Below are positions 23,026 through 39,444 of a DNA stretch of 64,000 bases, piece by piece. The position numbers were made by a program, and so were the translations under genes. The DNA comes from Bacteroidetes bacterium RIFCSPLOWO2_12_FULL_37_12 (GTDB taxonomy: Bacteria; Bacteroidota; Bacteroidia; 2-12-FULL-37-12): contig MEPC01000024.1 of the NCBI GenBank assembly GCA_001769655.1, positions 1-64,000 on the forward strand, read 5' to 3'. Every line of letters begins with the position of its first letter. The first letter of the stretch is position 1. A model generated the notes under the pieces. It was given only the letters and a program-made list of their open reading frames with translations. It was not told where the DNA came from and made no database searches.

Positions 23026-23128
23026 GGAGCGGAGTAAAAACATTCTATCTGTAAATCTTATTTCGTCTCAAATCCTTAATTCAAAAATTTCATGTAAGTT
23101 TGTGCCTTCAAATTACCTAACAATAGTT

Positions 23129-23223
23129 GTCACGCAAAGGCGCTAAGTTCGCTAAGAAAAAAATCATGAATGATTTTTTACTCTGCGTGCTTAATTCTTT
23201 GCTTTCTTTGCGCCTTTACGTGA
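23129..23223. repeat. Miniature inverted repeat (GTCACGCAAAG family), copy 2
   Basis: Left arm GTCACGCAAAGGCGC, inner palindrome AAAATCATGAATGATTTTTT, right arm ending in CTTTGCGCCTTTACGTGA. It lies in the 23026-23424 gap, which contains this copy, the next copy and no gene. The upstream flank AATAGTT is shared with the copies at 23303 and 23681. Confidence 0.9.
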
Positions 23224-23302
23224 AGTTCTTTTTATTAAGCTTTAGAAGAAAGGAAGGCGTTTGAGATTTATAAGTTTGCAGTCGTTTATTAAAATAATAG
23301 TT

Positions 23303-23397
23303 GTCACGCAAAGGCGCCAAGTTCGCAGAGTAAAAAATCATGAATGATTTTTTACTCTGCGCGCTTTATTTTTAGCGTGTTTTGCGCCTTTGCGTGA
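23303..23397. repeat. Miniature inverted repeat (GTCACGCAAAG family), copy 3
   Basis: Same structure as the copy at 23129: GTCACGCAAAGGCGCCAAG, TCATGAATGATTTTTT, then GCGCCTTTGCGTGAA. It directly precedes the first integrase-like arm-domain open frame, and its right side is duplicated at about 24110-24200 ahead of the second. Confidence 0.9.
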
Positions 23398-23424
23398 AAT
23401 AAATTTTATATAACCATTACACCT

Positions 23425-24093
23425 ATGATAACCATTGAAAAAATCCAACATAAGGGGGAATACCGCATTGCGGTTCATTTTCCGAACAACCAATCTTTTA
23501 CCGAAAAAGTAAAAAAAATAGCCGATTCATTATGGAGCATGTCGCGGGGTACCTGGCATATACCCTATACTTTAAAATCCTATCAGGAATTATTAGAGAA
23601 ATTTCCGGGAATAAGACCGATGGAAAAGAAGGTGAATATCTCAACGAAAGATGAGAATGTAATTATCCATCAAAATAATAGTTTTCACGCAAAGGCGCAA
23701 AGTACGCAAAGGAATCTAACTGAAAATGAAATAGCAAAAATTTTGGTTAATATTTTTTTTAAGGTGCACCGAGTATTAGGACCAGGATTACTAGAATCAG
23801 TTTATGAAGCCGCTATCTGCTATGAATTGGATAAAATAGGAATGAAATACAAGCGTCAGGCAGAAGTTCCCGTATTTTATGAATCTGTAAAATTAGAATT
23901 AGGATTTCGTGCAGATATTATTGTGGAAGAAAAAGTTATAGTGGAAATAAAATCAGTTGAAACGATGTCAACTACTTTCCCCAAAATATTGCTCACTTAT
24001 TTACGAACGACAAACTTAAAATTGGGATTGCTTGTCAATTTCAATGTCGAATTGATAAAACAAGGAATAAAGAGAATTGTGAATAATCTATAA
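23425..24093 (+). CDS. Chimeric open frame: integrase N-terminal arm domain fused to a GxxExxY (PD-(D/E)XK-like) protein
   Basis: 222 residues in two unlike parts. Residues 1-66 (MITIEKIQHKGEYRIAVHF...) are nearly the same as the N-terminal arm domain of the broken recombinase at 24197. Residues 86-94 (HAKAQSTQR) are the translated left arm of the 23129-type repeat. Residues 95-222 are a GxxExxY-family protein: the name-giving motif is GPGLLESVYE, and the PD-(D/E)XK-like residues are in FRADIIVEEKVIVEIKSVE. The fusion probably arose when a repeat element carrying the GxxExxY gene inserted into an integrase gene copy. Whether the GxxExxY part starts from an internal codon (for example ATG at 23620) is unclear. 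GxxExxY proteins have no proven function; a nuclease role is inferred from the fold. Confidence 0.75.
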   Translation: MITIEKIQHKGEYRIAVHFPNNQSFTEKVKKIADSLWSMSRGTWHIPYTLKSYQELLEKFPGIRPMEKKVNISTKDENVIIHQNNSFHAKAQSTQRNLTENEIAKILVNIFFKVHRVLGPGLLESVYEAAICYELDKIGMKYKRQAEVPVFYESVKLELGFRADIIVEEKVIVEIKSVETMSTTFPKILLTYLRTTNLKLGLLVNFNVELIKQGIKRIVNNL

Positions 24094-24170
24094 GTTTGCA
24101 AAGAAAAAAATCATGAATGATTTTTTACTCTGCGGCTTAATTCTTTGCGTGCTTTGCGCCTTTGCTTGAA
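23681..24170. mobile_element. Gene-bearing version of the GTCACGCAAAG inverted-repeat element
   Basis: The left arm (TCACGCAAAGGCGCAAAG, 23685-23702, continuing to 23712) is followed by the GxxExxY coding part. After its stop codon come the inner palindrome TCATGAATGATTTTTT (24111-24126) and the right arm ending in CTTTGCGCCTTTGCTTGAA (to about 24170). The order is left arm, gene, inner palindrome, right arm. The three miniature copies have the same arms and inner palindrome without the gene, as expected if they are non-autonomous derivatives. Transposition has not been shown for this family. Confidence 0.6.
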
Positions 24171-24196
24171 ATAATATTTACACAACCATTACACTT

Positions 24197-25001
24197 ATGA
24201 TAACCATTGAAAAAATCCATCACAAGGGGGAATACCGCATTGCGGTTCATTTTCCCAGGGAAAAAAATCTTATAGATAAGTTAAGAACTATTCCGGGTAC
24301 GTTGTGGAGCCAGACAAAAACCACATGGCATATACCGTATTCAATGGATGCTTATAAAAAATTATTGGAATTATTTCCGGAGTTAAGATTGGCACAAAAA
24401 GAAACAACACGCAAATCTTCGAGGGTTTATTATAGGGCTAAACAAATAATTTATGAAGAAAAACAAAAACCTGCTATTTATAAAAAAGAGGATAAAAAAA
24501 ATCATTATAAAGTTTTATCTGAAACACAGGGCTATTTTATGCCTTGCATATTCCGGTGGATTAAGGGTTAGTGAATTAGTGAATATAAAAATTAGTGATA
24601 TTGACAGCAAAAGGATGGTAATCACATTGCGTCAAGCGAAGGGGAAAAAGGACCGGCAAGTAATGTTAAGCGAAAAATTATTAGAAATACTTAGAGTATA
24701 TTTTAAGGAATATAAACCAAGCACATTTTTATTTGAAGGACAGAGTAAAGAGCAATACAGTAAACGAAGCATAGAGGAAATAATTAAGAACGCAAAGAAA
24801 AAAACAGGGATAAAAAAGAAAGGGAGTATTCATGCTTTACGGCATAGCTTTGCCACTCACTTATTAGAGGGGGGGACTGATTTGATTACCATAAAGGAAT
24901 TGCTTGGACATGCCAGTTTAAAAACGACAGCTATTTACACACATGTGAGCACAAAACAAATCAGCAAGGTGCAAAGTCCATTAGACAAAATAGGGCTATA
25001 A
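24197..25001 (+). pseudogene. Tyrosine recombinase (integrase), frameshifted and internally deleted
   Basis: Two overlapping frames make up one recombinase. The first (24197-24571) starts MITIEKIHHKGEYRIAVHF and encodes the arm-binding N-terminal domain. The second (from about 24453 to the stop at 25001) encodes the catalytic domain with Arg I in YSGGLRVSELV, the Lys-containing beta-hairpin QAKGKKDRQVML, HxxR in HALRHSFATHL, and His/Tyr in LGHASLKTTAIYTHVS. All catalytic residues survive, but the frame changes between about 24450 and 24530, near an A8 run, and the usual core-binding (SAM-like) domain of roughly 90 residues between arm and catalytic domains is missing. It is therefore unlikely to work as a recombinase. 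Confidence 0.85.
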
Positions 25002-25163: not shown

Positions 25164-25194
25164 TTGATTGGTTATTAATATTTTAGTATATTTG
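25164..25194 (+). promoter_or_regulatory. Candidate Bacteroidota promoter upstream of the defence-like module
   Basis: TTG at 25164-25166, a 20-bp spacer and TATATTTG at 25187-25194 match the Bacteroidota -33/-7 pattern (TTG and TAnnTTTG). It points toward the 1663-residue protein, whose ATG is 320 bp downstream, beyond the palindromic repeat at 25317. Confidence 0.5.
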
Positions 25195-25316
25195 CAGTTG
25201 AGTATAATAATGTGTTACCTGCAATGCTGGACAACGACCGTGCAACCATTAAACTGACTGACATGAAACAATCGGATATCGGGACAACAACTTTCGGACT
25301 GACTGTCAAACACGAC

Positions 25317-25463
25317 AGCCAACGCAAAGAAGTTTTATTTTTTTCCACCGCACATTTTTTGTTTTTTAATTTTATGGCTACCGCACAAAACACACTTTCA
25401 TTTTTTTGCCGACACACGAATCCAATGCAGAAAAAAATGAAAGAGTGTTTTCTCCAACGCTTT
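25317..25463. repeat. Cassette-border palindromic repeat, copy 1
   Basis: It opens with AGCCAACGCA and closes with TCTCCAACGCTTTA. Inside, CACTTTCATTTTTTTGC (25393-25409) pairs with GCAGAAAAAAATGAAAGAGTG-like sequence (25427-25447). The same opening and closing blocks bound the repeat at 32114-32240; the inner arms differ in sequence but keep the hairpin. It ends about 50 bp before the first gene of the module. Confidence 0.7.
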
Positions 25464-25514
25464 ACTAATAACCAAGAGACAGAATCCTATCTTTGACTAC
25501 AGTATAAATTTTCA

Positions 25515-28500
25515 ATGGCAAAAAAAGTAAAAAAACAAAAGCAAGAACGAAAACCATTTCATCTTTTTAAGGGGATGTTGCGATTGGTTTCATCCGAGTT
25601 TGAAAAACGATTTAATAATTTCAATAACGAGCATCAAGTATTTACAGAGTTGGGGTGGTCAGTTGATTCAAATAGGAATGGACTTCTTATTGACTTATCT
25701 CAAATCAGGTGGGTTGAACTTGGTGCAGCAGCACAACTTGTTTTACTTATTGAAAGTGCGAAGAAACAAGGATTGAAAATCATGATTGCTTTGCCTCTTA
25801 ATAAATTAAGTAAAGGAGAGAGTGAATCATTGGTTAAAAGCAAAGCCAACTCAGATACAGAATTTCAAAAAAAGTCAGAAGTATTTGAAGGATTGAGATT
25901 ATCAAGAGAGTATGCAAAAAATTATTTATCAAATATTCAGTTTCAGAGAACATCGGTTTGTCCGCATATAAAAACTGGTGAAGTTGTATTTACAGAGGAT
26001 TATCAATTTGAAGCCGAGAAAACAAACGAATCTGAAACTGAAATAGAAAAGAAATCCGCAAGCGAAATATTACGAAGAATAAGAAGACCTGATGAGATTG
26101 GCTACAGATTTCTTATTCCTCTTACTTGGTTGAAAGCAAAACAGCACAATCACAGTTTAGATTTTATTGAAGAAAAATTTACAGATGTATTGAGTCAATC
26201 TGAACGAGGACTTGATGCTATTGATGCACAAGCGATAAAAAATGTAATCATAAATGAACTTTTAAAAAATGTTAGGGAACATTCTAAATGTGATGATGCG
26301 TTAATTTGCGTTGCGTTACAGCCGAGTAAAATACTTACCGCAAACGACTATTTGCCATGCGAAAGAAACTTTATTGAGTGGACAAGTAAAACGAACACAA
26401 ACTATATTTCAATTTTTTTCGGGGACAATGGAGATGGCTTGTGCAGAACACTTGAGCCAGCATTTAAGTCCAACTCTAATGAAAAAGCTAATGACTATAA
26501 TATTATTAAATGGGCATTTGATAAATGGTCAACAAGCAAAACTGATGAAACTCTTAGGGGTACCAAAGGGCTTTACAGAATTCTCAGGATAATTAATAAA
26601 TACAATGGACTAATCGCTATAAGAACTGCTCATGAAAATGCAGGATTTCAAAAAGGCGGTCTTGAAAGTTCAAAGTTTGTTCACCAAACGATAGAAAATA
26701 AAAAAAGTCTGAACATCGGATTGCTTCCCGGGACATTTTTGAAAATGCAATTTTCTCCATTCAAGGAGTTAATAAAATTCAATATTACACCTCATATTGC
26801 TCAATACAAACAAGACGATGATTATAAGTGGGTAACAAAAACAATCCGATTAGATACAAGGAATCCAAAAGAAACTTTCGTTAACGATTTATCGGTAAAA
26901 AAACTTTTCGGAGAACAAAAAACTAATGTTCTCATTTTGATTGATGCAAAAAACAGTAAACTTTCAAAACCTGATGAAATAGAAGATTCAATAAAAAATC
27001 ATCTTTTGCATTTAAGTGAAGCAAGACACCCAAACGGTGTTGTTGTTTATGGCTTCCCAACAGGTTGGGAGAATATTGAAACAATTGTAAATTCTGTCAA
27101 CTCGTTAATTCAAGAGAAAAGAATAAAACCAGAAGTAGATTCTGAAGCTATTCATCCAGACAAAGAAGATATTTATGACCCTGTTCTTGTGTTAGGTGAG
27201 AACCGTCAATTCTGTTGGGTAGGAGACGACACAAATATTATTTCATGCCTCAATGAGCTTTATCGTAGTGAACAGCCCCCCAAAAAAATTACTAAATTAG
27301 AATCCTTTAACTCGCTTGATTTAAAATCACAGACAAGAGTATTACAATATTTCATGAGTGATGATGCAGTCGTAACTTTGGAATATGGTCAAGCATTACG
27401 GTTTAACTTTAGCAATCTTAAAAATCATTTTTCAGAGCAACTAAAACTCAAGCTAAATGAAACAATAAAGGAACATAAGGAGAATCAAAAATATTATGTA
27501 ACTCCTAATTTACGCAATGTAAAATATTGGGTGAACATTGATAATCTTATAAAGGGTGACATGAAAGGATATGCTTTTGCACTGAGTTCAGCACTAAAAG
27601 AAATTGATTCAACACTTCCTGAAAATCTCACCAATTACAAAATACTAATTGACAACCAAGATTCATTTCAGTTGGCAGTAGAGTTTTCAGGTTGGATAGG
27701 AATACCAAAAAAAAATATTATCAATTTCAATGATGAAGTTGATGGACGATTACCAAGACGAAATCCAATTTTTGAGGAGAAAGACAATGTAATAATTCTT
27801 ACAACAATTATTTCTACAAAAGAAACTGCAAGAAGGTCTTTGAAAGCAGTGTTAAGAGATTTGGCTAACCCTATTGCTGTGTTAGGCATAATAAACCAAA
27901 GCAATGATATACCCATTGCTGCATGGGATAATAAAAGACCGACAGTATCACTTATAAATAATGTTGATTTTGAAATTTCACAAGAGGAAATTTCAAAGCA
28001 CAACTTACAACCAATTTTCAAAGCACCTTTTGGCTACAGTGATGAACCGACTGACAATGAATCAAAACCTGACAAAGAGATTGAAAAGATTTACAATTTA
28101 ATAACCGAACAAAAAGCGTTACATTTTAGCCATATAGGGAAAACAAACAGCCGACATTTTACTTTCTATCTTAGTGCAACAAGATTATTGAACGATGAAG
28201 AGAAATCTGAGAAATTAATTTACGGAAAGTTTTATGACAGAATAAAAGAATGGCTTGATGATATAGGAGAAAACACATTTGACATTTGGAGACCAACTCC
28301 AGATTTTAAATTATTAAATCCAGTAAATAAAATCACAAATAAAATTTCTAACTATTTTGCGGAAAAAAGAAAATACAAGTGCAACAATATTTCCGAAATT
28401 AAACGAGTAGCAAATTATGGTGAATGGAGTTTGATGAACCCAAGGGAGTATCAGATGAATCCTTGTGAAAATATTGTGATTGTAGATTGGGGAAGTTTAA

Positions 28501-30506
28501 CAGGCAACACCACCCAACAAATGATAAATCTTGCAGCACAAGAAGGGAAGAAAAATATACTTGTCTGCATTTTATTTTCTCAATTACCTTCTAAAGAGGA
28601 AGAATTTTTAATAAACATAAAAGAAGTAAAAGGGCAAAAGAAAAAAAATAAACAAACATTGTTTGAAGCACCTGTAATCAGCGAAATAAGTTCAGCCGTT
28701 TCTGTTAATTTCTTTTATCGCCTTCCTCTAAGGAATTATGAATCAGCTGACTGTCCTATATGTGAACACATCCATGCATTAAGAGAGTTTGAAATTAAAG
28801 GCGAGCACATGAGTGACTTCTACATGAAAAGAAGGGAGCGTTTAAAAATTAAAGACAAGGATAAAGCAGATTTACCGCCCCAGGACTTTTATGCTAACGA
28901 TAATATCTTTTTAGATTCAGAAGTGATTCTGCACATGTTCAAGTTTCGTGTTTTATTACAAGAAGCACTTTTGTCAACGAGAAAAAGAAAAGAGATAGAA
29001 GATTACTTCGTTAAGATTTTTCAAAATATTGAAAAAGAAAAAATAAATCCAAAGTCAGAGATTTATTCCATCCTCTATTTTTTATCTACTGAAATAATGT
29101 GGATGCAAAAACCCCCTTTAGTTTTCCTAAGTATTCGTAAAACTCTTTCCCAAATTGCTAAAACTATTGCAGTTTGGAAATTGGAAGAAGCAAGAGATTT
29201 CTTTTTTGATGAACCGACCTTAGTTCGTTACAAGTTTGCGGCAATTAGTGTTCTTAGGTCATCAGATAAAAACGAATTTAATCTTTCAATACATGATATT
29301 TTCGCAAGTGCTAAGAGAGGAGATTTATACTCTCATTCTATAACGCAAAATCTTTTTTATCATACCTACTCCTATTTAAAAAGACAATATCATACTTCAA
29401 GTGAATACTTTGATATTGTAATAAAAAAACTTGATTTGATTTTAAAAGAAAATAATCTGAGTAGCAAATTAAAAAACGTCATTATTTTCTTGCGATACTT
29501 TGCAGAGAAAAGAAAATTTGAAATTGCAATTCCATCTGATACAAAAATGTCAGCGTTTAATAGCTACAAGAAACAAATCATAGACAACTACGGACTAAGC
29601 TACAAGCATAATAATGTCAGCGATGATTTCACAGAGGTGAAACCTATTGATTACTTACAGATGTTGCAAACTCACCATGAAAAGAATTTGTCAGAAGAAA
29701 ACTTAAAATCAATTATTGAAAATTCAGGGTTTGTTAACTGGCTCAGTATAGTTCCGAAAAGATGGTCTGATGTCGCTGCATATCTAAACAATGTCGTAAT
29801 AAATCACTTTGGCAAACTTGATGATTTAGTAAACTCAAAACTATTTTCTTCAAGTGACACTTTGTTTGCAACATTTATCCGACAAATGTTATCCGAGAAA
29901 AAACTATTTGGTGTCAATGACGAATTGACTTTGCAGATTAACGATATTATTACAAACTCTTCTATACTCGGAAGCCGAAGTTTCTTTAATCGCTTCATAA
30001 GTACATGGAATTTTTACTACCAAAGTTTCATGCATGTGAATGCACATGCACCAGCATTATCATGTCCATTGGTTAAAATCGCTGAACAAGCTCCTTGTAA
30101 TTTTTTAGACGCGGTTAATAAGTCAATTGGCGAATCTGAAAGAAAAGCAAAAGGTCAAAATATAAAAATCGATTTTAATTGTAAAATAACCAATGATGCG
30201 AAAATATTTTTTCCGTATAGCCAGCTTAAACGCTTTTTTGACCAAGTATTTTTATATAATCTCTTTACTCATCATATAAATGGGCAAACAATAACAGTTG
30301 CGGTTGAGCAGATTTTAAAATCAGATGAAAGTATCACAATTAGAATAAGCAGTAAGGGAACAAAGCCAAAGGAAAGAAACAGTGGAGGACTAAATAAATT
30401 CGTTACTGAGTTTGCACTGTTCGGAGGACATTTGAATTACGACTATAACAAATCAAGAAAAGAATTTTTAATTGATATTAAACTATTAATTTGGAAAGAT
30501 GAGTAA
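25515..30506 (+). CDS. 1663-residue multidomain STAS / GHKL-ATPase / PRTase-like protein, putative conflict-system sensor
   Basis: No named family is recognised for the whole protein. Visible parts: a basic N-terminus; a STAS-like strand-helix segment at about 55-95 (GLLIDLSQIRWVELGAAAQL); a GHKL/histidine-kinase-type ATPase domain at about 235-420 with N box NELLKNVREHS (247-257), G1 box GDNGDGL (303-309) and G2 box RGTKGLYRI (348-356); two PRTase-like Rossmann segments, NVIILTTIIST (758-768) and NIVIVDWGSLTGNTTQ (986-1001); a CPIC knuckle near 1080; a long helical region; and a second degenerate GHKL-like C-terminus (about 1500-1663). No phosphoacceptor His box of a classical kinase precedes the ATPase. 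It overlaps the next gene by 8 bp, so the two are translationally coupled. Role inferred: signal sensing and ATP-dependent switching. Confidence 0.7.
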   Translation: MAKKVKKQKQERKPFHLFKGMLRLVSSEFEKRFNNFNNEHQVFTELGWSVDSNRNGLLIDLSQIRWVELGAAAQLVLLIESAKKQGLKIMIALPLNKLSKGESESLVKSKANSDTEFQKKSEVFEGLRLSREYAKNYLSNIQFQRTSVCPHIKTGEVVFTEDYQFEAEKTNESETEIEKKSASEILRRIRRPDEIGYRFLIPLTWLKAKQHNHSLDFIEEKFTDVLSQSERGLDAIDAQAIKNVIINELLKNVREHSKCDDALICVALQPSKILTANDYLPCERNFIEWTSKTNTNYISIFFGDNGDGLCRTLEPAFKSNSNEKANDYNIIKWAFDKWSTSKTDETLRGTKGLYRILRIINKYNGLIAIRTAHENAGFQKGGLESSKFVHQTIENKKSLNIGLLPGTFLKMQFSPFKELIKFNITPHIAQYKQDDDYKWVTKTIRLDTRNPKETFVNDLSVKKLFGEQKTNVLILIDAKNSKLSKPDEIEDSIKNHLLHLSEARHPNGVVVYGFPTGWENIETIVNSVNSLIQEKRIKPEVDSEAIHPDKEDIYDPVLVLGENRQFCWVGDDTNIISCLNELYRSEQPPKKITKLESFNSLDLKSQTRVLQYFMSDDAVVTLEYGQALRFNFSNLKNHFSEQLKLKLNETIKEHKENQKYYVTPNLRNVKYWVNIDNLIKGDMKGYAFALSSALKEIDSTLPENLTNYKILIDNQDSFQLAVEFSGWIGIPKKNIINFNDEVDGRLPRRNPIFEEKDNVIILTTIISTKETARRSLKAVLRDLANPIAVLGIINQSNDIPIAAWDNKRPTVSLINNVDFEISQEEISKHNLQPIFKAPFGYSDEPTDNESKPDKEIEKIYNLITEQKALHFSHIGKTNSRHFTFYLSATRLLNDEEKSEKLIYGKFYDRIKEWLDDIGENTFDIWRPTPDFKLLNPVNKITNKISNYFAEKRKYKCNNISEIKRVANYGEWSLMNPREYQMNPCENIVIVDWGSLTGNTTQQMINLAAQEGKKNILVCILFSQLPSKEEEFLINIKEVKGQKKKNKQTLFEAPVISEISSAVSVNFFYRLPLRNYESADCPICEHIHALREFEIKGEHMSDFYMKRRERLKIKDKDKADLPPQDFYANDNIFLDSEVILHMFKFRVLLQEALLSTRKRKEIEDYFVKIFQNIEKEKINPKSEIYSILYFLSTEIMWMQKPPLVFLSIRKTLSQIAKTIAVWKLEEARDFFFDEPTLVRYKFAAISVLRSSDKNEFNLSIHDIFASAKRGDLYSHSITQNLFYHTYSYLKRQYHTSSEYFDIVIKKLDLILKENNLSSKLKNVIIFLRYFAEKRKFEIAIPSDTKMSAFNSYKKQIIDNYGLSYKHNNVSDDFTEVKPIDYLQMLQTHHEKNLSEENLKSIIENSGFVNWLSIVPKRWSDVAAYLNNVVINHFGKLDDLVNSKLFSSSDTLFATFIRQMLSEKKLFGVNDELTLQINDIITNSSILGSRSFFNRFISTWNFYYQSFMHVNAHAPALSCPLVKIAEQAPCNFLDAVNKSIGESERKAKGQNIKIDFNCKITNDAKIFFPYSQLKRFFDQVFLYNLFTHHINGQTITVAVEQILKSDESITIRISSKGTKPKERNSGGLNKFVTEFALFGGHLNYDYNKSRKEFLIDIKLLIWKDE

Positions 30507-32112
30507 CCGAAAATTTAAAATAATTCATTGGGACGATGATAGCGTAATGAAGGGCTTCATTACAGGAACAATACCAAGCGTTCTTAAAGAGTTTGAATGC
30601 GAAGTTGAACAAGGAGATTTCTTTGATTCAAGTGTGCAGTTTGTTGAAAGGTTGAAGAATGTAAAATATGACTTGGTTATTCTTGATATTGAAAATGAAA
30701 CCGACAAGGACAATAAATCTGATGTAGGATTTGAGCTACTGAATGATGTAATTACAACATACAAGAACTCTATTCCGCTCTTAATTTTCTCCCGACACCC
30801 AAGAGTTTTAGAGAAAGTTGGGGAATTCAAAAAAGCACACAATCTAAATATTGAGTTCTTGAATAAAGGACTGAGAGGGGAACCGGCATATCAACAAAGA
30901 GTAAAAGAGAAACTAAAATTATTATTAAATCTTGGTTACCCCGAAGTTAAACTTCTACCCTACAATGATTTTAAAACTAAATCCGCTGTCAAATCAATTG
31001 GACTACACAACTTACAAAGTATTATCTCTCTTTATCTGAGTTCAAAATCAATCCTGAGTAATGACAAGGTTAGTATCAAAGTGATTGCACCTGGTTATTC
31101 AGGTGCGTATGTTTTTGAAGTGGTATTTGGTTCTTTAAGCAAGTTGCTTAAAATTTCTCATGATAAATCCGTTATCGTAAGAGAATATGAAAACCTAAAT
31201 TCATACTCTACATTTTTACCATCCAAAATTAAAATTGATTACGATAAAATTGACCCTACTCAACTTTCTTCCGAAGGATGGTATCCGATTTTTTATGAGT
31301 TGGTTTCATATTCAAATACTCTTTTCGGGTTCATTGCTAAAAACCAGAACCAACATTCAGAAATTGAAGCACTTTTAGCAGAGATATTTTCGGACGAAAG
31401 ATTTTTAAAATTATATCAACACAGAAAAGAATTTGACATCGTAATAAACAAAAATATTTTGGAAGACATTGATAGTGTAAGAGCTTCTTTTATTGAAAAC
31501 GCAGTGAAGACATTAGAACCAATCTTAAAAAAACACTCAAATATTTTTGATAAAAGTATAATTGACATAATCACTGAGCATCATTCCTTTGGAAATATCT
31601 CTGATGCGAAAATTGGAATTCCAAAGTCAAATAAAATCCTATCACATGCGGACTTGCATGCAGATAACATTCTTGTAGATTCTCAAAAATCTCCAATAGT
31701 AATTGACCCCGGCAGTATTAATTACAAATACTGGTCTTATGATATAAACCGACTTTTAATGGATTTATTTATTCGTGGAATCGGACACCAGACACTTGAC
31801 TACTTCGACATTAATTCTATTAAAAAGGATTACAGCATATTTCAAAACATACTTACACGACAAGCAATTCAGGTTGAAAATTTCAAAAGCGATGAAGGTT
31901 TTATTACCGCAATAAATTGGCTTATCAAGAATGTTACAGAGATTCACAAGACAGATTTTGTTGAATGGCAATATCAATTAGGACTTGGGCTTGAGTTATT
32001 GAAGGCATCGTATAAGAGTATTTCACTTCCTGCAAACAAGAGGGCATTGGCTTTATTGTGTGCATGTGAAGCAATAAAAAAAGCAAGTGCAACTTTGGAA
32101 ACAACAACATGA
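30499..32112 (+). CDS. Response-regulator receiver domain fused to an APH-like kinase
   Basis: 537 residues. Residues 1-125 are a receiver domain with the full phosphorylation set: acidic D12-D13, phosphoacceptor D63 (VILDIE), S99 (LLIFSRH) and K123 (FLNKG). Residues about 195-500 resemble the aminoglycoside phosphotransferase/choline kinase fold: a GYSGAYVFEV nucleotide loop (199-208), LLKIS strand (216-220), catalytic loop HADLHADN (383-390) and metal-binding IDPGS (402-406). A helical tail follows. No DNA-binding domain is present. The upstream GHKL protein would be the natural phosphate donor or switch for the receiver, although it lacks an obvious His box. It may belong with the kinase-like ternary-complex-associated domains predicted for bacterial conflict systems; that link is from memory and unproven. 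Confidence 0.8.
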   Translation: MSNRKFKIIHWDDDSVMKGFITGTIPSVLKEFECEVEQGDFFDSSVQFVERLKNVKYDLVILDIENETDKDNKSDVGFELLNDVITTYKNSIPLLIFSRHPRVLEKVGEFKKAHNLNIEFLNKGLRGEPAYQQRVKEKLKLLLNLGYPEVKLLPYNDFKTKSAVKSIGLHNLQSIISLYLSSKSILSNDKVSIKVIAPGYSGAYVFEVVFGSLSKLLKISHDKSVIVREYENLNSYSTFLPSKIKIDYDKIDPTQLSSEGWYPIFYELVSYSNTLFGFIAKNQNQHSEIEALLAEIFSDERFLKLYQHRKEFDIVINKNILEDIDSVRASFIENAVKTLEPILKKHSNIFDKSIIDIITEHHSFGNISDAKIGIPKSNKILSHADLHADNILVDSQKSPIVIDPGSINYKYWSYDINRLLMDLFIRGIGHQTLDYFDINSIKKDYSIFQNILTRQAIQVENFKSDEGFITAINWLIKNVTEIHKTDFVEWQYQLGLGLELLKASYKSISLPANKRALALLCACEAIKKASATLETTT

Positions 32113-32113
32113 A

Positions 32114-32240
32114 AGCCAACGCACAAAAAAATACACTCTTGCAAGTCGCTCAAGGCAACGCTGAAACCAAAGCTTGCAAGAGAGTATTTTTTTCTCCCGC
32201 CCAAGAAAAATTAAAAAAGAGTGTTTTCGCCAACGCTTTA
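32114..32240. repeat. Cassette-border palindromic repeat, copy 2
   Basis: It starts 1 bp after the kinase stop codon with AGCCAACGCAC and ends in TTCGCCAACGCTTTA. The inner hairpin is ACACTCTTGCAAG (32133-32145) with CTTGCAAGAGAGT (32173-32185). The block GAGAGTATTTTTT, CTCCC and CCCAAGAAAAATTAAAAAA is shared with copy 3 at 36175. Confidence 0.85.
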
Positions 32241-32301
32241 ATTAGAATCATACATTTGCAAACAACATTTAAAATAAAATCTAAAGATAAAAAATAATAA
32301 A

Positions 32302-33732
32302 ATGGCAAATCTTGAAAAAAAATACTACATCAATGTAGGAGCAAATGGAACATTTGCAGATTCTGGACAAGTTCACTCAACACCTTCTGATGTTGAAGAT
32401 ATTTTTAAATTCCTTAATGACAGCGACATTGAAAAACTTCTGATATATTTTCATGGAGGTTTGGTAAGTGAGAAAAATGGAATGAATGCAGCAGAATTAA
32501 TGAAAAATTATTTCGCTGATGTAAATTCAAAAAGACATGTTGTTTCCTTTGTTTGGGAAACTGGTCCGATTGAGACAGTTGTCCAAAACCTGAAAGATTT
32601 AAAGGAGTTGACAGGAAAAGATTTGTTTGAGGAAGTAATTAAATTTGTAATCAAAATTGTTGCTAAAAAACTTGGAATATCAGATGCAAGAGGCGATGGA
32701 GAATATTTAAGTGACACAATCATTAAAGAAGAAAAAAATAAAGTTGCACCATTTGAAAATCTTGACAAAGATTTAGGAACAAGAGGCGGTGCAATTATTG
32801 ACATTGATGATGAAGATGAAACATACAGCGAATTTTACAAAAAGTTAGAAGCAGAATCCAAAAATCTTTTGGATAATGAAGCATCTGACGAATTGAAAAA
32901 TATTAATGAGGATAATGAAGAAGTAAGCAGAGGTGGCTTTTTAGTTATAGCGAAAATTGTTGCTCAAATAGCTTTTGCTGTATTGAAACGCTATTGGAAG
33001 AAAACTCATCACGACTTTTATCCTACAGTAATGGAAGAAGCATTCCGAAAAATTTATTTGGATAAAATCGGGCACTGGGGCTGGAAACAAATGAAAGACA
33101 AATCGGATAAAATGTTTCAAAGCAATTCAGGACTTTCGGGAGATGCTCAATATGCCGGAGCATTCTTTCTTGCACTGCTTGACATGCATACAAAAAACAG
33201 AGTAACAGCAGGAAAGAAATTTGAAGTGGAATTAATTGGACATAGTGCAGGTTCCATTGCAATTTGTAACTTGCTGGAGGCAACAGGAAAAAACTTTCCA
33301 TCAATCAGATACAACAATATTTTCTTCCTTGCTCCTGCCTGCCGCACAGATTTGTTTCTTGAAAAGGGAAAGGCAGCAAAGGAGAAAGGATTATTTCAAA
33401 AGTTCAAAATGTTTACAATGGAAGAAAGCAATGAGAAGAAAGACTATTGTATTCCATTCATCTACACACATTCGTTACTGTATATGGTTTCAGGATTGTT
33501 TGAGGATGAAATTGATGCTAAAATTATGGGACTTCACGAACAGTTTAAAGCAATAGGACGCTATTCTGATTTTGACGAGTTGAAGAAATTGAATTCGTTT
33601 ATCAATGATAACAAACTTGTTCTTTCAACCGACACAACAAACACGGATGAAAGTATGCGTTCAAACTCTTTAAAGCATGGAGATTTTGACAATGATGACT
33701 ACACTTTAAAATCAATCTTGAAAAGCATTTGA
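32302..33732 (+). CDS. Predicted serine hydrolase (lipase/esterase fold), putative effector
   Basis: 476 residues, cytoplasmic, no signal peptide. An alpha/beta-hydrolase frame is visible: strand LLIYFHGGLV with an HGG oxyanion motif at 51-53, a large helical and acidic insertion (about 90-305), nucleophile elbow ELIGHSAGSIA with S315 in GHSAG, and strand NNIFFLAPACRTDLF near 340 that could supply the acid. The C-terminal His is not certain (one candidate is in LKHGDFDNDD). Lipases and esterases are common effectors in bacterial immune systems, but the family is not recognised here. It is the first gene of a three-gene unit, 2 bp ahead of the caspase-like gene. Confidence 0.75.
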   Translation: MANLEKKYYINVGANGTFADSGQVHSTPSDVEDIFKFLNDSDIEKLLIYFHGGLVSEKNGMNAAELMKNYFADVNSKRHVVSFVWETGPIETVVQNLKDLKELTGKDLFEEVIKFVIKIVAKKLGISDARGDGEYLSDTIIKEEKNKVAPFENLDKDLGTRGGAIIDIDDEDETYSEFYKKLEAESKNLLDNEASDELKNINEDNEEVSRGGFLVIAKIVAQIAFAVLKRYWKKTHHDFYPTVMEEAFRKIYLDKIGHWGWKQMKDKSDKMFQSNSGLSGDAQYAGAFFLALLDMHTKNRVTAGKKFEVELIGHSAGSIAICNLLEATGKNFPSIRYNNIFFLAPACRTDLFLEKGKAAKEKGLFQKFKMFTMEESNEKKDYCIPFIYTHSLLYMVSGLFEDEIDAKIMGLHEQFKAIGRYSDFDELKKLNSFINDNKLVLSTDTTNTDESMRSNSLKHGDFDNDDYTLKSILKSI

Positions 33733-33734
33733 TT

Positions 33735-34793
33735 ATGAACTATGCAGTTGTAATAGGCATTGACCACTATGACAAAAAACCTTTATCGGCTGCTGTAAGC
33801 GATGCAAAAGGGTTTGCTAAATATTTGTTTAGCAAAAAACTTGTTTCAGGGTCTGCTGATACCATAAATAAATTTAAGGACGAGCATACTGAAATAAATA
33901 TTGATAAGGCACTCCAAGACAACACAGGAACTGATAACCTTAAACTTTTATTGTCCGATACTGACAATCAAATTGCAGATAATAAAGATATTGATAAGGC
34001 GATTGACGATGTTATACAAGATGCAAAAAAACACAGAGCAGAAAAAAATCGCTTGTATTTTTATTTCGCTGGTCATGGCATGGGTGTTACTTATGATAAA
34101 ACAGCATTGTGTTTAAGATTTTGGCCAAATTGGTTTAATCACTGCATTTCAAGTTCTGATTACAAATCTTGGTTAATAAACAAAGGAGTGTTTGATGAAA
34201 TTCTGATTTTTCTAGATTGTTGCAGAGAGTATGACCAAAATATAGATGCAAAGTCTCCTTTTCCCGATTGGGAAACGCCTATTGGCGACAAATCTCCAAA
34301 CATCCTTATTTGTAATGCCACCATGTATGGCAAACTCAGTTTTGAAGTAGGTGCTGATAAAAAAAGAGGAGCATTCACATCTTTCTTAATTCAATCTTTG
34401 AATGGTGATGCAGACAGAAAAAACGAAGGAATAATAACTTCAAACTCTTTAAAAAATCACATCAATAATAATTTTGAAACTTATGCCACACAGCAGGGCA
34501 AGTATCAGCGAGGTGATGCCTTCACTCAAGGAACTAACGGAGATGCTATTGTAATTTGCGAAGTTGAAAACTTAGTTTCAGCACATAATTGTGAAATCAC
34601 TTTTAAGAGAAATTCAAATGTTACATTAAAAGGTAGAGATACTAAACCTATACGAACAGATGATGTTACAGAAGGCGATAAATGGAATTGCAAATTGGAA
34701 CAGGGCTTTAGCGTTTTGATTGACAACCACACCAACGAAAAGAAGTTAATTGAGAATTATTCTGAAAATACAATGAGCTATGTTAAGTTCTGA
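33735..34793 (+). CDS. Caspase-family (C14) cysteine protease
   Basis: 352 residues from the ATG at 33735; a TTG six bases upstream is also in frame but would overlap the previous stop. The N-terminal ~260 residues form a caspase/metacaspase domain: VVIGIDHYDKKPLSAAVSDA opens it, the catalytic His is H114 in YFYFAGHGMG, and the catalytic Cys is C163 in IFLDCCREYD. A beta-rich region (about 275-352) follows. Caspase-like proteases in bacteria act in signalling and abortive-infection pathways, activated by partner proteins. The gene is bracketed tightly by the hydrolase gene (2-bp gap) and the next gene (14-bp overlap), so the three proteins are probably made together. Confidence 0.88.
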   Translation: MNYAVVIGIDHYDKKPLSAAVSDAKGFAKYLFSKKLVSGSADTINKFKDEHTEINIDKALQDNTGTDNLKLLLSDTDNQIADNKDIDKAIDDVIQDAKKHRAEKNRLYFYFAGHGMGVTYDKTALCLRFWPNWFNHCISSSDYKSWLINKGVFDEILIFLDCCREYDQNIDAKSPFPDWETPIGDKSPNILICNATMYGKLSFEVGADKKRGAFTSFLIQSLNGDADRKNEGIITSNSLKNHINNNFETYATQQGKYQRGDAFTQGTNGDAIVICEVENLVSAHNCEITFKRNSNVTLKGRDTKPIRTDDVTEGDKWNCKLEQGFSVLIDNHTNEKKLIENYSENTMSYVKF

Positions 34794-36174
34794 AAATAAA
34801 TATCATGTTACTATTTCTTTCAATCAAAGAATTGAAGGAATACTGTTGTCCCTCGTTAACGGCATTTTAGAAACCGTTTACACAGGAGTTGCGGAGCAAT
34901 TAAGTTTAGAATTGCCAGTAGGCATTTACAAACTGAGAGCAAAGTTTATTGACTATATGCAAGAGTATCCTTTAATCATTGACGAAAACAAGAACTTCCG
35001 TTTAGATTTTGATTATCCTTCTGTTGCACCAATACTTTCATTCAGAACCACGCACGAATACTTTCACGGCAACTGCGAATACTTTAGCAAATTCACAACT
35101 GAAAAAGAAGAAAAAGCAAATCCAAGTTTATTATTTTTTGGAGCGAAATATGACAAGGATAAGTTCCAAAATGTCATAATGGAAAAACTGCTTTCCAATT
35201 ATTCAGTAATCAACAGCGATAACGAAACCCTTTCTCAATTCGACTCGGTAAATGCAAAGTTTAGTAATGACTATGGATGGTTGGCATTTTCAACCAAACT
35301 ACAAAATGGACAATATTTTTTGAAGTGGAACAATGAATCTGAATGCAGAATTTTTCCATTTTACATTTTTGACAATTACCAAACACAATTTTTTATTCGT
35401 TACTCAACATTGCCTGACTTTGAAAACTGTTTTTTCTTTTATACAAAGAAAATGTGTTTTAGTGTTGATGCAGAAGAATACCTTGTGCTCGACAAAATTC
35501 TTTTCGCATTCAAAGATTACAGCAACTATAAATTATTGACTGAAAAAGATATAAGCATCATTCAGCAACACCCCTACTTAGTTACTCTTATTCATATTCT
35601 TCAATCGGAACTAAGTGAAAAACTTGACTGCGAAGATTGTGAACATTTACTGTTGCCTGACTTAATACTTCTTTCGGACAATCCGAATGAAATTGAAAAT
35701 GATGAATTACTCCCTGTGATTTCATCGGTTATGAATAAATACTCCTATAACAAAAAAAATAAAAAAGTATCGTTCAAACCTGCTTCCTTAATTGACAGGA
35801 CAATTGACCATGTTAGATACGATTTGTTTTGGAATAACTTTTCAAAAATTGACAACACAATTGATTGGTTAGACCTGTATTCAAAGTTTATAAATAAATC
35901 TGATTTGTTTCCAGTAAGCAAAAGCGACAATCAAATTGTAAAACTAGGTAAGCGGGTTGCGAATAAATTTGCAAAGGCAAACAAAGACACAATTGAAGTA
36001 AGATTAAATTCCCTTATTGGTAAAATACAAGTTGAAAATTTTGAGAGTAATATAAACGAAACATTTAACAGTATCGGAGATGTATCTGAAATTGCAGACA
36101 AGCTAAACCTACCACCGACTAAAGTTTTGAGAAACTATGAAACTTACAAAGGAATTTATGACAAACTTAAATAG
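34780..36174 (+). CDS. Unknown partner protein of the caspase-like protease
   Basis: 464 residues, no recognised family. The N-terminal ~85 residues look like a small beta-sandwich (YHVTISFNQRIEG, VGIYKLRAKF, NKNFRLDFDY) that resembles in pattern the C-terminal beta region of the caspase-like protein. The middle is mixed alpha/beta with several aromatic-rich strands (FYIFDNYQTQFFIRY). A cysteine pair lies in LDCEDCEHLL near residue 285. The last 30 residues (SEIADKLNLPPTKVLRNYETY) have a helix-turn-helix-like pattern. It starts inside the end of the caspase gene, which indicates coupling. It could be the recognition or adaptor subunit for the protease; this is inference from position only. 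Confidence 0.7.
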   Translation: MLSSENKYHVTISFNQRIEGILLSLVNGILETVYTGVAEQLSLELPVGIYKLRAKFIDYMQEYPLIIDENKNFRLDFDYPSVAPILSFRTTHEYFHGNCEYFSKFTTEKEEKANPSLLFFGAKYDKDKFQNVIMEKLLSNYSVINSDNETLSQFDSVNAKFSNDYGWLAFSTKLQNGQYFLKWNNESECRIFPFYIFDNYQTQFFIRYSTLPDFENCFFFYTKKMCFSVDAEEYLVLDKILFAFKDYSNYKLLTEKDISIIQQHPYLVTLIHILQSELSEKLDCEDCEHLLLPDLILLSDNPNEIENDELLPVISSVMNKYSYNKKNKKVSFKPASLIDRTIDHVRYDLFWNNFSKIDNTIDWLDLYSKFINKSDLFPVSKSDNQIVKLGKRVANKFAKANKDTIEVRLNSLIGKIQVENFESNINETFNSIGDVSEIADKLNLPPTKVLRNYETYKGIYDKLK

Positions 36175-36290
36175 TCAACCCGCAAAAAATTCACTCTTGC
36201 AATTCGCACAAGACAACCGCACAAACCCAAAATTGCAAGAGAGTATTTTTTCTCCCACCCAAGAAAAATTAAAAAACAAAAAATTTCCTT
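36175..36290. repeat. Cassette-border palindromic repeat, copy 3
   Basis: It begins directly at the stop codon of the preceding gene. Hairpin arms CACTCTTGCAATT (36193-36205) and AATTGCAAGAGAG (36231-36243); the following TATTTTTTCTCCC and CCCAAGAAAAATTAAAAAA match copy 2. An open frame running across it (36137-36436) is repeat-derived. From 36291 to 36425 there is only unassigned intergenic sequence. Confidence 0.8.
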
Positions 36291-36425
36291 ACCTTCAAAA
36301 AAATAAAACTTCGCAACCGCACAGTGCTAACTTGACACAGACGAGCATTGAATGGTGGACAGCATTGAAAAAAGTTTATCGTAACTTGACACGGCAGCAC
36401 TTCGGACAGGCAGAAGCACATGCAG

Positions 36426-36568
36426 GTAACAACTAAGGCTTCGTTGCAACAGGGGCTTAAAAGAAATGGCGGGTGACGAACAGGTTTGAGAGTTTTTGCT
36501 ATTTATTTACTTTTGTGCGGGCTGACAGTGACGAGCATTTAATCCGCCACTTCTTTAAGCCCCGAACC
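36426..36568. repeat. attC-like long palindromic repeat A
   Basis: GGGGCTTAAAAGAAATGGCGG (36452-36472) pairs with CCGCCACTTCTTTAAGCCCC (36544-36563) around a ~70-base centre containing TGAGAGTTTTTGCT. The right end reads GAACC and is interrupted by an insertion sequence; the continuation GTTATCGG resumes at 37540. It is similar in design to 39309-39444. Confidence 0.75.
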
Positions 36569-37539
36569 GTCAGATTGTGAAAAAACCTATTTTTTTAAGA
36601 TTTCCATTTTAAAATCCCGTTTTAAATTCTATTACAACCCACCAGAAGCATTAAGAGCTTTTCATTTTTTCATGCCGCAAGTCGATATGAAAAATTTACT
36701 GGTGCCACAACACCTCGCATTGTGTCACTTTTTTTCAAAAACAAAATTTTCCCTCCTTGGTTGAGCATATTTTTATAATCCGGTTTCCATTTCTTCAACT
36801 TTTTTAATAATTTTTTAACCCCAACTATTGAAATCGTTCGTCTTAAATTGTAGCAGATAAAAATGATTCCCATCTCTCCGTCCACTTTTTGTAATCCTTT
36901 GAGTAAGGTGTATGTAAATCCCCATTGTCGTTTAATCGTGCCAAAGGTATGCTCGCAAATTTGTTGCCGTCTGTTATAAAGCTCTCTTTGTGTTTTTATT
37001 CTGAAATTATTTCTATCCACAGCATCCTGATTTTCGTTCCGCTCAATTACCCTTCCTCTTCCTTCCGTATTTTTTGTACATTGATTTAATACGGGACACA
37101 TTTGGCAGAAGGGCGTTTTGTAATGTTTCACTCTTGTGGTTCCCCCTGTTTTTCGTTTTTCACTCCGATGACTTTTTTTATACCAGCTCCCGTTGGTTTT
37201 AAGTAGTTGCCCCTGTGGACAGAGGTAGGTATCATTCTTCGGATTGTACTGGAAATTTTCTACGAGATATTTTTTGTCTAAATGTTTTACCGATGGCTGT
37301 TCTCTGAATGCCACAACTGTGGTGATATTTACAAAAATGTGTTCAAGAAGTTCCTGAGAGAACTTATTTTTTTATTTTCCGAATTTTTGATTTCCCTAAA
37401 AGCAAAATACTACCACAGGTTGATTCCAAATTTTTAATTTTCATTCCGCTCTATTTTTTTTTCCTTCCGTATATCGCTTATATTACATACGATTTTTGTG
37501 TATTTTTGCTGGTGAAAGGTAGTTTTTAGACGGACTGCC
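36569..37539 (-). mobile_element. IS1182-type insertion sequence, internally deleted (IS-A)
   Basis: One end begins GTCAGATTGTGAAAAAAC at 36569; the other, read inward from 37539, begins GGCAGTCCGTCTAAAAAC. These match at 12 of 18 positions and are taken as terminal inverted repeats. The element is 971 bp, well short of a full IS1182 element, and only the C-terminal part of the transposase remains. Its left end also occurs at 43539-43582, and its right ~300 bp at 39445-39770. Confidence 0.7.
36670..37314 (-). pseudogene. Truncated IS1182-family transposase (C-terminal part)
   Basis: 214 residues matching the C-terminal half of IS1182/DDE_Tnp_1_6 transposases: NFQYNPKNDTYLCPQGQLL, a Cys-rich YKTPFCQMCPVLNQCTK, the E-containing RQQICEHTFGTIKRQWGF and the FICYNLRRTISIVG tail. 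Full-length relatives are roughly twice as long and carry the first two acidic catalytic residues upstream; that part is missing, so the protein should be inactive. The 37315-37500 stretch upstream contains no further transposase frame. Confidence 0.85.
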
Positions 37540-37585
37540 GTTATCGGTCTTGCTAAGAGGACACAGCGTTTCATAAATTAACATC

Positions 37586-37614
37586 TTGATTTGAGATAAA
37601 AAGTTGTATTTTTG
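37586..37614 (+). promoter_or_regulatory. Promoter placed directly at the HTH-ImmA/IrrE gene start
   Basis: TTG (37586-37588), an 18-bp spacer and TATTTTTG (37607-37614) match the Bacteroidota promoter pattern. The downstream ATG at 37621 is only 6 bp past the -7 box, so the transcript would have almost no leader. Confidence 0.6.
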
Positions 37615-37620
37615 CAATAT

Positions 37621-38799
37621 ATGGTAGAAAAGGCATACATAACGGCAAAGGTCTTTAAATGGGCAAGAGAATCAGCTAAAATGACTGAAGAAGTTGCTAC
37701 ATCTAAAGTTGCCGTTTCTATTGATAAGTTCAAGGATTGGGAAAATGGAGAAGATTATCCGACCATTAGACAGGCGCAGACTTTAGCGAAAGCGTATAGA
37801 AGACCATTTGCATTATTTTTTCTGCCTGATGTACCAACTGATTTTCAACCTCTTCAAGATTTCAGGAAAACAGGCTCAAAAGAATTAAGTACATCTTCAA
37901 TTTTCATAATTCGAGAAATACAACAAAAACAAGCTTGGATTAGCGAAGTAAACGAAGATAATAATGAAAACAAAGTTCCATTTATTGGCAAATTCACAAT
38001 TAGAGATAATCCAGTACTTGTTGCCAATGATATCCTCATTACGCTAAATATCAACCCACTAAATTATAAATCTAATAATCCAATCATCGAATGGATTGAT
38101 AAAGCTGAATCTAATGGGATTTTTATTTCAAGGACTAGTTTTATCCATTCAAGGCTAAAGTTGGACTCAAATGAAATTCAAGGTTTCGCAATTGCAGACA
38201 ACTTTGCTCCTTTTATATTTATTAATTCAGAGGATTGGAATGCTCCTCAATTATTTACTTTAGTTCACGAACTTTCTCACCTTTGGATTGCCGAGACGGG
38301 AATATCAAATGACGTAGAGCCATCAATAAAAAATGCGGGTGATTATAATCCAATTGAATTATTCTGCAATGAAGTTGCTGCAAACGCATTAATGCCTAAA
38401 GAATTCATTGACAGTCTTGACAGTAAGGCTTTTGATAATGCAAAAGAAGTTTTTAAAAATGCTAAAATAATTGGGGTTAGCTCTTTTGCATTATTAGTTA
38501 GAGCATTAAACCTTAACATTATTTCATTAAGTGCATATAAACAATTGAAGCATTTAGCCGACATTGAATATAACGAATTCTTAAAAAGAGAAGAAGCAAA
38601 AAAAATAAAGCAGAAAGAGAAAGAAAAACCAGGCGGGCCAAATTATTTTTTACTGCAACTAAACAGAAATAGTCGATTATTTACACAAACTGTATTAGAT
38701 GCTTTTCGTGGAGGGGTAATTGAACCATCCATGGCAAGTAACTTATTAAATGTTCAGGTAAATAAATTTCCCAAACTTGAAGCACAAATGTACAGATGA
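37621..38799 (+). CDS. HTH (XRE) and ImmA/IrrE metallopeptidase domain protein
   Basis: 393 residues from the ATG at 37621; an in-frame TTG at 37612 lies inside the -7 promoter box and is not used here. An XRE-like HTH at about residues 8-65 is followed by the LFFLPDVPTDFQPLQDFR hinge typical of this family, and an ImmA/IrrE zinc peptidase domain with HELSH at 216-220 and a downstream Glu in FCNEVAANALMP (ligand Glu). Proteins of this type cleave or regulate repressors and antitoxins. The stop overlaps the next gene's start by 4 bp (ATGA), a common arrangement in which this protein is the regulator or antitoxin of a PIN-like DUF4411 toxin. Confidence 0.9.
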   Translation: MVEKAYITAKVFKWARESAKMTEEVATSKVAVSIDKFKDWENGEDYPTIRQAQTLAKAYRRPFALFFLPDVPTDFQPLQDFRKTGSKELSTSSIFIIREIQQKQAWISEVNEDNNENKVPFIGKFTIRDNPVLVANDILITLNINPLNYKSNNPIIEWIDKAESNGIFISRTSFIHSRLKLDSNEIQGFAIADNFAPFIFINSEDWNAPQLFTLVHELSHLWIAETGISNDVEPSIKNAGDYNPIELFCNEVAANALMPKEFIDSLDSKAFDNAKEVFKNAKIIGVSSFALLVRALNLNIISLSAYKQLKHLADIEYNEFLKREEAKKIKQKEKEKPGGPNYFLLQLNRNSRLFTQTVLDAFRGGVIEPSMASNLLNVQVNKFPKLEAQMYR

Positions 38800-39308
38800 G
38801 TATAATTAATAAAAAATTCTGCTTAGATGTTAATGTGCTTATTCAAGCATGGCAAAAATACTACTCCCCAAAAATATGCCCAAGTTATTGGGATATGCTT
38901 AATGAGTTGGGAGCTAATAATATCATCTTCATGCCTGAGATGGTTTATGATGAAATTGTTCGAACAGATGATGATTTGTCAAAATGGTTGAAGTCCAGTA
39001 AAATTCCGATTAGAAAGATTGACGAGCAAGTAACGAAATGTTTAAAAGACATCTATTCAGCTGACCCAAACCACAAATATTTTGTTGATAATACAAAGGC
39101 AAGGTCATTGGCTGACCCATGGGTGATTGCACATGCATTAAGAGAGAACGCAACAGTCGTTACAAAGGAAGAAAAAGTAACAGCATTAAATACTACGAAA
39201 ATTAAAATTCCTAATGTGTGTGAAAATATGAATGTATTTTGGATTAATGATTTTCAATTGATTGTTGAGTTAGGGATTATGTTTAAATGTGAAATGGAAA
39301 CAAAATAA
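38796..39308 (+). CDS. DUF4411 PIN-like protein, putative ribonuclease toxin
   Basis: 170 residues. The first acidic residue is D11 in FCLDVNVLI, with further conserved acids in MVYDEIVRTDDDL and SLADPWVIAHAL (residues near 105-110), which match the PIN-domain acidic site as seen in DUF4411. The family is predicted to cut RNA and commonly follows an HTH-ImmA/IrrE partner, as here with a 4-bp overlap. Toxicity is inferred from the pairing and not visible in the sequence. Confidence 0.85.
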   Translation: MSIINKKFCLDVNVLIQAWQKYYSPKICPSYWDMLNELGANNIIFMPEMVYDEIVRTDDDLSKWLKSSKIPIRKIDEQVTKCLKDIYSADPNHKYFVDNTKARSLADPWVIAHALRENATVVTKEEKVTALNTTKIKIPNVCENMNVFWINDFQLIVELGIMFKCEMETK

Positions 39309-39444
39309 AGCACGAACCGCCAACATATAAGGATTAAACGCAAGCGGGGCAGACGAGCAATTTGAAAGTGTTTTGCTTTCTATTATCTTCGCAGCGTGGG
39401 ACAGAGACAAATTATTAATCCCGCACTGCATTAAGCCGTAACCC
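39309..39444. repeat. attC-like long palindromic repeat B
   Basis: It starts at the DUF4411 stop. GGATTAAACGCAAGCGGGG (39331-39349) opposes CCCGCACTGCATTAAGCC (39420-39437), with a TTGAAAGTGTTTTGCT-containing centre like repeat A. The right end reads GTAACCC and is interrupted by IS-B; GTTATGCCC resumes at 40082. Confidence 0.75.

Follow-up and report, generated by a model that had tools for sequence, protein, structure and literature searches.

The five genes located between positions 25515 and 36174 of the window, i.e., the whole 64,000-nucleotide stretch of DNA analyzed here, form two modules that are probably independent conflict systems, most likely anti-phage ones, carried together as the cargo of one integron-like cassette. 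It is likely that at least one of these modules, termed A and B, acts in biological conflict, and very likely that the two work independently of each other. This reading builds on the structure of the modules, their separability, the conservation of catalytic residues, and the ends of the cassette, and the mechanisms presented below are inferred.

Organization of the locus

The window is part of contig C24 of a 3.9 Mb Bacteroidota genome. The original prediction of five co-directional genes coupled as a pair and a trio is borne out by the coordinates of the open ORFs, all of which lie on the + strand. Module A consists of P0001 (25515-30506, 1663 aa) and P0002 (30499-32112, 537 aa), which overlap by 8 nt. 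After a gap of 189 nt, module B follows with P0003 (32302-33732, 476 aa), P0004 (33729-34793, 354 aa, 4-nt overlap with P0003), and P0005 (34780-36174, 464 aa, 14-nt overlap with P0004). Since each of the five has homologues elsewhere and the gene order within each module is kept, all of them are regarded as real genes. The TTG start of P0004 follows from the longest-ORF rule, and when its numbering begins at an internal ATG, the caspase residues count as H114 and C163, as they had been named beforehand, in place of His116 and Cys165.

Most of the domains proposed in the original prediction were confirmed, namely the receiver, the APH-like kinase, the caspase, and the hydrolase, whereas the STAS and GHKL domains gave only weak direct matches to Pfam.

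Module A: a STAS-GHKL-PRTase protein and a receiver-kinase

P0001 begins with a STAS-like region (about aa 36-92; Pfam 0.012), followed by a GHKL ATPase domain (about aa 240-425) with an N-box (E248/N252) and the motifs D304xGxG and G349TKG. Two degenerate PRTase-like domains come next, with loops near aa 759 and 988, then a CPxC motif at aa 1080, a helical region and, by eye, a candidate C-terminal HATPase. The homologues of this protein are P0006 (31% identity) and P0007 (20%), and the GHKL motif residues are common to all of them. Direct Pfam detection of GHKL in three homologues is weak (0.041, 0.19, and 0.008), with the matches sitting at one position in all three. The STAS and GHKL calls are strengthened by a family profile built from three homologues, whose GHKL segment matches a histidine kinase and free-standing GHKL ORFs, and whose PRTase segment matches a PyrE orotate PRTase; moreover, the homologue from genome G014 clears the Pfam cut-off for PRTase (3.7e-8). 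The PRPP loops are degenerate both in P0001 and in its Chlorobium homologue, and for this reason the PRTase-like parts are more likely to have a binding or regulatory role than a catalytic one. No phospho-accepting histidine that could serve as phospho-donor was identified in P0001. AlphaFold2 models reached a mean pLDDT of 33 for aa 1-850 of P0001, computed from two sequences, and of 36 for P0005 from a single sequence. The GHKL part of the family profile also matches a stand-alone protein of 294 aa (L092 1435-2319, - strand), which by eye has a STAS-like N-terminus and is possibly an ancestor-type component.

P0002 combines a receiver domain (D63) and, in the same chain, an APH-like kinase (APH match 2.8e-6) that retains the catalytic motifs HxDLHxxN and D403PG, the latter of the D-x-G type. 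The receiver is recognized by Pfam in homologues, with E-values of 0.0084 in Chlorobium and 4.7e-9 in G014. Among the relatives, P0008 has the same receiver and APH arrangement, and P0009, in which a candidate HD-like motif is seen by eye, joins its receiver to a different C-terminal half.

Module B: hydrolase, caspase, and a variable third protein

P0003 is an alpha/beta-hydrolase with the serine-hydrolase motif GHSAG, which is kept in its relatives. Ser315, the residue singled out by the original prediction, is invariant together with His459 in an alignment of 11 hydrolase homologues. P0004 is clearly a caspase, with a PADLOC match of 3e-18 and, in a homologue, a Pfam C14 match of 4e-16; His116 and Cys164-165 are invariant across nine caspases, and inspection by eye leads us to suspect a beta-rich C-terminus. 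In sequence searches against solved structures, only the caspase was placed.

P0005 matched no family and is a family-specific third component, proposed to be an adaptor. Rhizobial proteins share its N-terminal region and extend it with trypsin and nuclease or PLD domains: the third protein of Rhizobium gallicum extends into Trypsin_2 and Endonuclease_NS, and that of Mesorhizobium into Trypsin_2 and PLDc_2. A constant region whose nuclease attachments change is a hallmark of conflict components that carry an effector. Such fusions are encoded on rhizobial plasmids (L014 8496-12254 and L011 8552-12901). The third gene is the variable member of module B: that of Sinorhizobium and of another Rhizobium encodes a protein of another kind, which contains a pYEATS domain. 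Roles of P0003 in phage lysis or in metabolism were considered and found no support, and matches to Pfam DUF2853, Sulfatase, DUF7645, and TCAD9 were all below cut-off and were discarded.

The original prediction had not recognized the five-gene combination as a named system. PADLOC has no model for P0001, P0003, or P0005 and matched the caspase. The pairing of hydrolase and caspase has already been described (Kaur et al. 2020, PMC7159879) and is not new here.

Distribution of the two modules

P0001 occurs in 3 of the 297 genomes of the phylum, i.e., its own, that of Chlorobium ferrooxidans (G225), and G014, another Bacteroidota genome. The module A pair is present in G225 and module B is absent. 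Module B is likewise absent from G014, where the P0001 homologue is very diverged (20% identity) and the receiver protein, with its other C-terminal half, is encoded near a Dcm-like DNA methyltransferase; this locus (L009 4711-17578) also holds a further uncharacterized ORF. Searches of plasmids and phages returned no match for P0001, P0007, or P0008, and for P0009 only three haloarchaeal plasmids, in matches that cover about one third of the protein, on the receiver side. No viral contig was matched when P0001, A1, P0007, or the hydrolase alignment was used as query. The only scan of a genome collection, with A1, gave Chlorobium alone, and it lends weak support to the absence of module A elsewhere because it used poor peptide patterns. 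Within the bounds set by this poorly targeted scan and by the sample size, the samples searched contain two relatives of module A, one of them very diverged.

For module B, P0005 was detected in 3 of 297 genomes of the phylum (its own, G174, and one weak partial match), and the hydrolase profile gave six matches among the 295 genomes of the class, its own genome included. Complete trios are present in three of these class-level matches (G482, G519, and G539); G354 has the hydrolase without the rest of the trio, and G534 a different fused form. G174 carries the trio only, without module A, as do three rhizobial plasmids. Overall, the hydrolase and caspase genes are adjacent in the window and in eight further loci, and in most Bacteroidota loci module B lies among ordinary genes, with no obvious defense island.

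A search with the P0001 profile of the six genomes that have module B or its hydrolase (G174, G482, G519, G539, G354, and G534) returned no match, a negative that applies to close relatives, since this profile is too insensitive to see the G014 homologue. From the distribution of pair and trio, it follows that the two-plus-three combination is, among the loci sampled, confined to the window: two genomes have module A by itself, and at least seven loci have module B by itself. The single five-gene circuit favored by the original prediction thus fails the co-occurrence check, with A and B together in no other sampled genome or locus, and its own caveat, that two independent systems may lie side by side, gains support.

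The cassette-like unit and the repeated sites

Both modules are contained in one unit of 11.2 kb (25214-36430) with complementary ends, GTTACCTGC...GCAGGTAAC. The left end (25214-25387, + strand) begins with GTTACCTGC. At the right end (36330-36448, + strand), GCAGGTAAC occupies 36422-36430, and a repeated element resembling a recombination site, TAACAACTAAGGCTTCGTTGC, starts here. Searches of the same genome with the junction and right-flank DNA identified partner copies, among them one on contig C1 (G000:C1), where a left end 89% identical over 174 bp and a right end 93% identical over 119 bp enclose different cargo. This sister unit (L032 6536-12868) codes for a PLP enzyme and for SPASM/viperin-like, PNP-domain, and radical SAM proteins, possibly an uncharacterized defense set.

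The 21-mer of the right end has 19 copies in the genome (allowing three mismatches or fewer) versus none for a reversed control. The element that starts with this 21-mer is about 340 bp long and has GTTTTTAGACGGACTGAC as its closing sequence, which was counted in 18 copies versus 1 for the control; examples of the sites are found at window position 36427, C1:103536, C4:72861, C35:793/1471/28415/29553, C39:57366-63796, and C42:304373/308082. The cargo between elements tends to have GTTxxxxGC at its start and the reverse complement at its end. Over nine units, the ends are complementary at 36 of 63 positions, versus 27.1 in shuffles (p = 0.011), and complementary cargo ends are the behavior expected of integron cassettes. 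The cargo beside other copies of the site includes a STAND NTPase, DNA methyltransferases (R-M), an OLD/GajA-like ATPase, a viperin-like radical SAM protein, and a trypsin, a content by which the array is assigned as a putative integron-like store of conflict genes. Units on contig C4 (L033 5096-10495 of G000:C4) code for a STAND NTPase (nSTAND5) protein and for an N6/N4 methyltransferase with an SNase-like tail. At many copies of the site, a TAnnTTTG-like promoter box lies just ahead of the next unit.

The surroundings resemble a defense island, as had been claimed. A frameshifted tyrosine recombinase (24197-25001, + strand), in the form of two overlapping ORFs, directly precedes the unit; it scores 131.9 bits with TIGR02249 against a cut-off of 265, and a XerA-type model scores higher. 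On the other side, an IS-like remnant (36448-37370, inner boundary approximate) with a DDE transposase fragment on the - strand (36670-37314) interrupts the repeated site, and a second cassette-like unit (37540-39318, + strand) carries a toxin-antitoxin-like pair (37612-39308), namely an HTH-M78 peptidase (RmrA-like) and a DUF4411 PIN-like protein. Two copies of one IS-like fragment (window 36524-36858 and 39400-39764) each appear to lie in or beside a repeated site, and short palindromic repeats cluster around a GxxExxY/PD-(D/E)XK protein at window 23114-24171.

Regarding expression, the scan for TTG-N20-TATATTTG and TAnnTTTG follows the Bacteroidota promoter consensus. Of the five matches to TTG-N20-TATATTTG on the window's + strand, one lies upstream of module A (25164-25194). 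The junction between the modules (32112-32260, + strand) contains a large inverted repeat (32125-32145 / 32173-32193), a T run, and a promoter-like box, TACATTTG, at 32251. With this hairpin, the T run, and its own TAnnTTTG candidate promoter box, the 189-bp gap is read as separating two transcription units. Scans for sigma-70 promoters and terminators did not exceed shuffles; the junction hairpin comes from a separate analysis. Moreover, P0001 and P0003 have a common leader (80% over 44 nt), and the 3' sides of P0002 and P0005 a common trailer, with a copy at 36184-36276 and at two other sites in the genome. These repeats around each module suggest that A and B may originally have been two cassettes that were fused later.

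Alternative explanations

STAS and GHKL form the partner-switching pair of sigma-factor control, and housekeeping genes flank module B at several loci, so the modules might be stress-response or developmental regulators, working by STAS/GHKL partner switching and by maintenance proteolysis of the metacaspase type, rather than parts of immunity. We regard this as unlikely, given the sporadic occurrence of the genes (3 of 297 genomes for P0001 and again for P0005, 6 of 295 for the hydrolase family), the nuclease, trypsin, PLD, or pYEATS parts that are swapped around module B, and the position at a mobile-cassette site among R-M, STAND, and OLD-like cargo. The original prediction had named a characterized non-defense pathway as the outcome that would speak against it; no characterized housekeeping pathway was matched, and for this reason a conflict function for each module stays the best reading.

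It is highly improbable that the block has decayed or lost its function and is kept in a mobile array by chance: the flanking recombinase and transposase are indeed broken and the repeated site 3' of the unit is interrupted, but the five ORFs are full length, the catalytic residues are conserved, and the GHKL motif residues are common to homologues. A single circuit, with sensing and relay in module A and with the caspase-hydrolase executor under the control of its kinase, is favored by the common strand, the 189-bp gap, and the shared unit 25214-36430, and yet it is scarcely credible when each module stands alone in every other locus found, the gap has a hairpin and its own promoter-like box, and the leader and trailer repeats indicate joined cassettes.

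Proposed mechanisms and significance

For two independent conflict modules, we offer a tentative mechanism for each. In module A, the STAS-GHKL-PRTase protein would sense, in an ATP-dependent manner, a nucleotide or phage cue that is recognized by its PRTase-like pockets. The signal would then pass to the receiver of its partner, by phosphotransfer or by nucleotide or contact switching, and would free the APH-like kinase fused to this receiver; by phosphorylating a cellular target, the kinase would bring about cell arrest. The exchange of the C-terminal half of the receiver protein in a relative (G014) fits an effector position.

The mechanism for module B, equally tentative, is that hydrolase, caspase, and third protein may act as a proteolytic switch. 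An infection cue would activate the caspase, after which caspase or hydrolase would process the adaptor or an attached effector. The rhizobial adaptor would bring its trypsin and nuclease or PLD domains, and in the window the hydrolase itself would most likely be the killing enzyme.

A bolder proposal, which we consider doubtful, is that module A founds a new defensive relay, in which a degenerate-PRTase/STAS/GHKL sensor of nucleotide-pool disturbance would drive exchangeable receiver-fused effectors, and that a Bacteroidota platform of 340-bp sites, distinct from classical integron attC, stores it alongside a new caspase-hydrolase-adaptor executor.

If true, these findings would add a defense-like family of signal relays, built on an unusual sensor and overlooked by standard defense models, and would establish that the hydrolase-caspase pair also has a stand-alone form of three genes, the third of which accommodates different nucleases. 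In addition, the integron-like Bacteroidota platform may be a systematic hunting ground for new immune genes. The claims on the relay family, the three-gene form, and the platform are all directly testable.

Comparison with known systems

As in integron arrays, repeated sites border the cargo, and the same cargo has complementary GTT.../...AAC ends. The differences are a site of about 340 bp, which is unusually long, and a recombinase remnant that is Xer-like and below the integron-integrase cut-off.

Module A recalls Detocs (PMC11728103, PMC11249213), which also combines a large kinase-like sensor with a receiver-effector whose effector half varies. The fusion of receiver and effector that characterizes DtcC is present in P0002 and P0008, with APH, and in P0009, with the other half. 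However, module A has two genes, its sensor includes STAS and PRTase parts, an APH-like kinase takes the place of PNP, and neither in the window nor in L007 or L009 is the pair accompanied by a third gene like that of DtcB, the phosphate buffer of Detocs. Module A is like Detocs in logic and is not a member of it. Receivers in conflict systems have been proposed as possible nucleotide switches that operate without histidine kinases (Aravind and co-workers, PMC8195603), and phosphotransfer in module A is therefore not certain.

The caspase of module B weakly matches the model for EACC1-associated caspases of two-gene systems (PMC7159879; NF047832), with 36.9 bits against a cut-off of 140, but the single-TM EACC1 gene expected next to it is absent, and its neighbors are the hydrolase and P0005. 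Another parallel is provided by the VMAP systems, whose caspases always have a neighboring alpha/beta-hydrolase (Kaur et al. 2020, PMC7159879); in the MoxR-vWA ternary systems, as here, the two genes adjoin, and joint action has been proposed. In contrast, no MoxR, vWA, or VMAP is encoded by the five genes or their scanned neighbors, and module B has a distinct third component with swappable nuclease, trypsin, and PLD fusions and occurs mostly as a stand-alone three-gene operon.

In canu, a bacterial caspase has been shown experimentally to activate a nuclease in phage defense (PMC12799240). Module B has in common with it a small operon of caspase, partner protein, and hydrolytic enzyme, and a logic of proteolytic activation. 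However, the enzyme of module B is a serine alpha/beta-hydrolase (GHSAG) without HxHxDH, whereas that of canu is an MBL-fold pro-nuclease, and the nucleases near module B occur only in the rhizobial relatives and are of the Endonuclease_NS or PLD families, not the MBL of canu. Caspases of canu have an Ig-like fold at the C-terminus, the part of P0004 that is suspected by eye to be beta-rich. Module B is not a member of canu, given that canu has an MBL nuclease where module B has its hydrolase; it is best described as a stand-alone relative of the VMAP hydrolase-caspase pair that may work, by analogy, in a canu-like manner.
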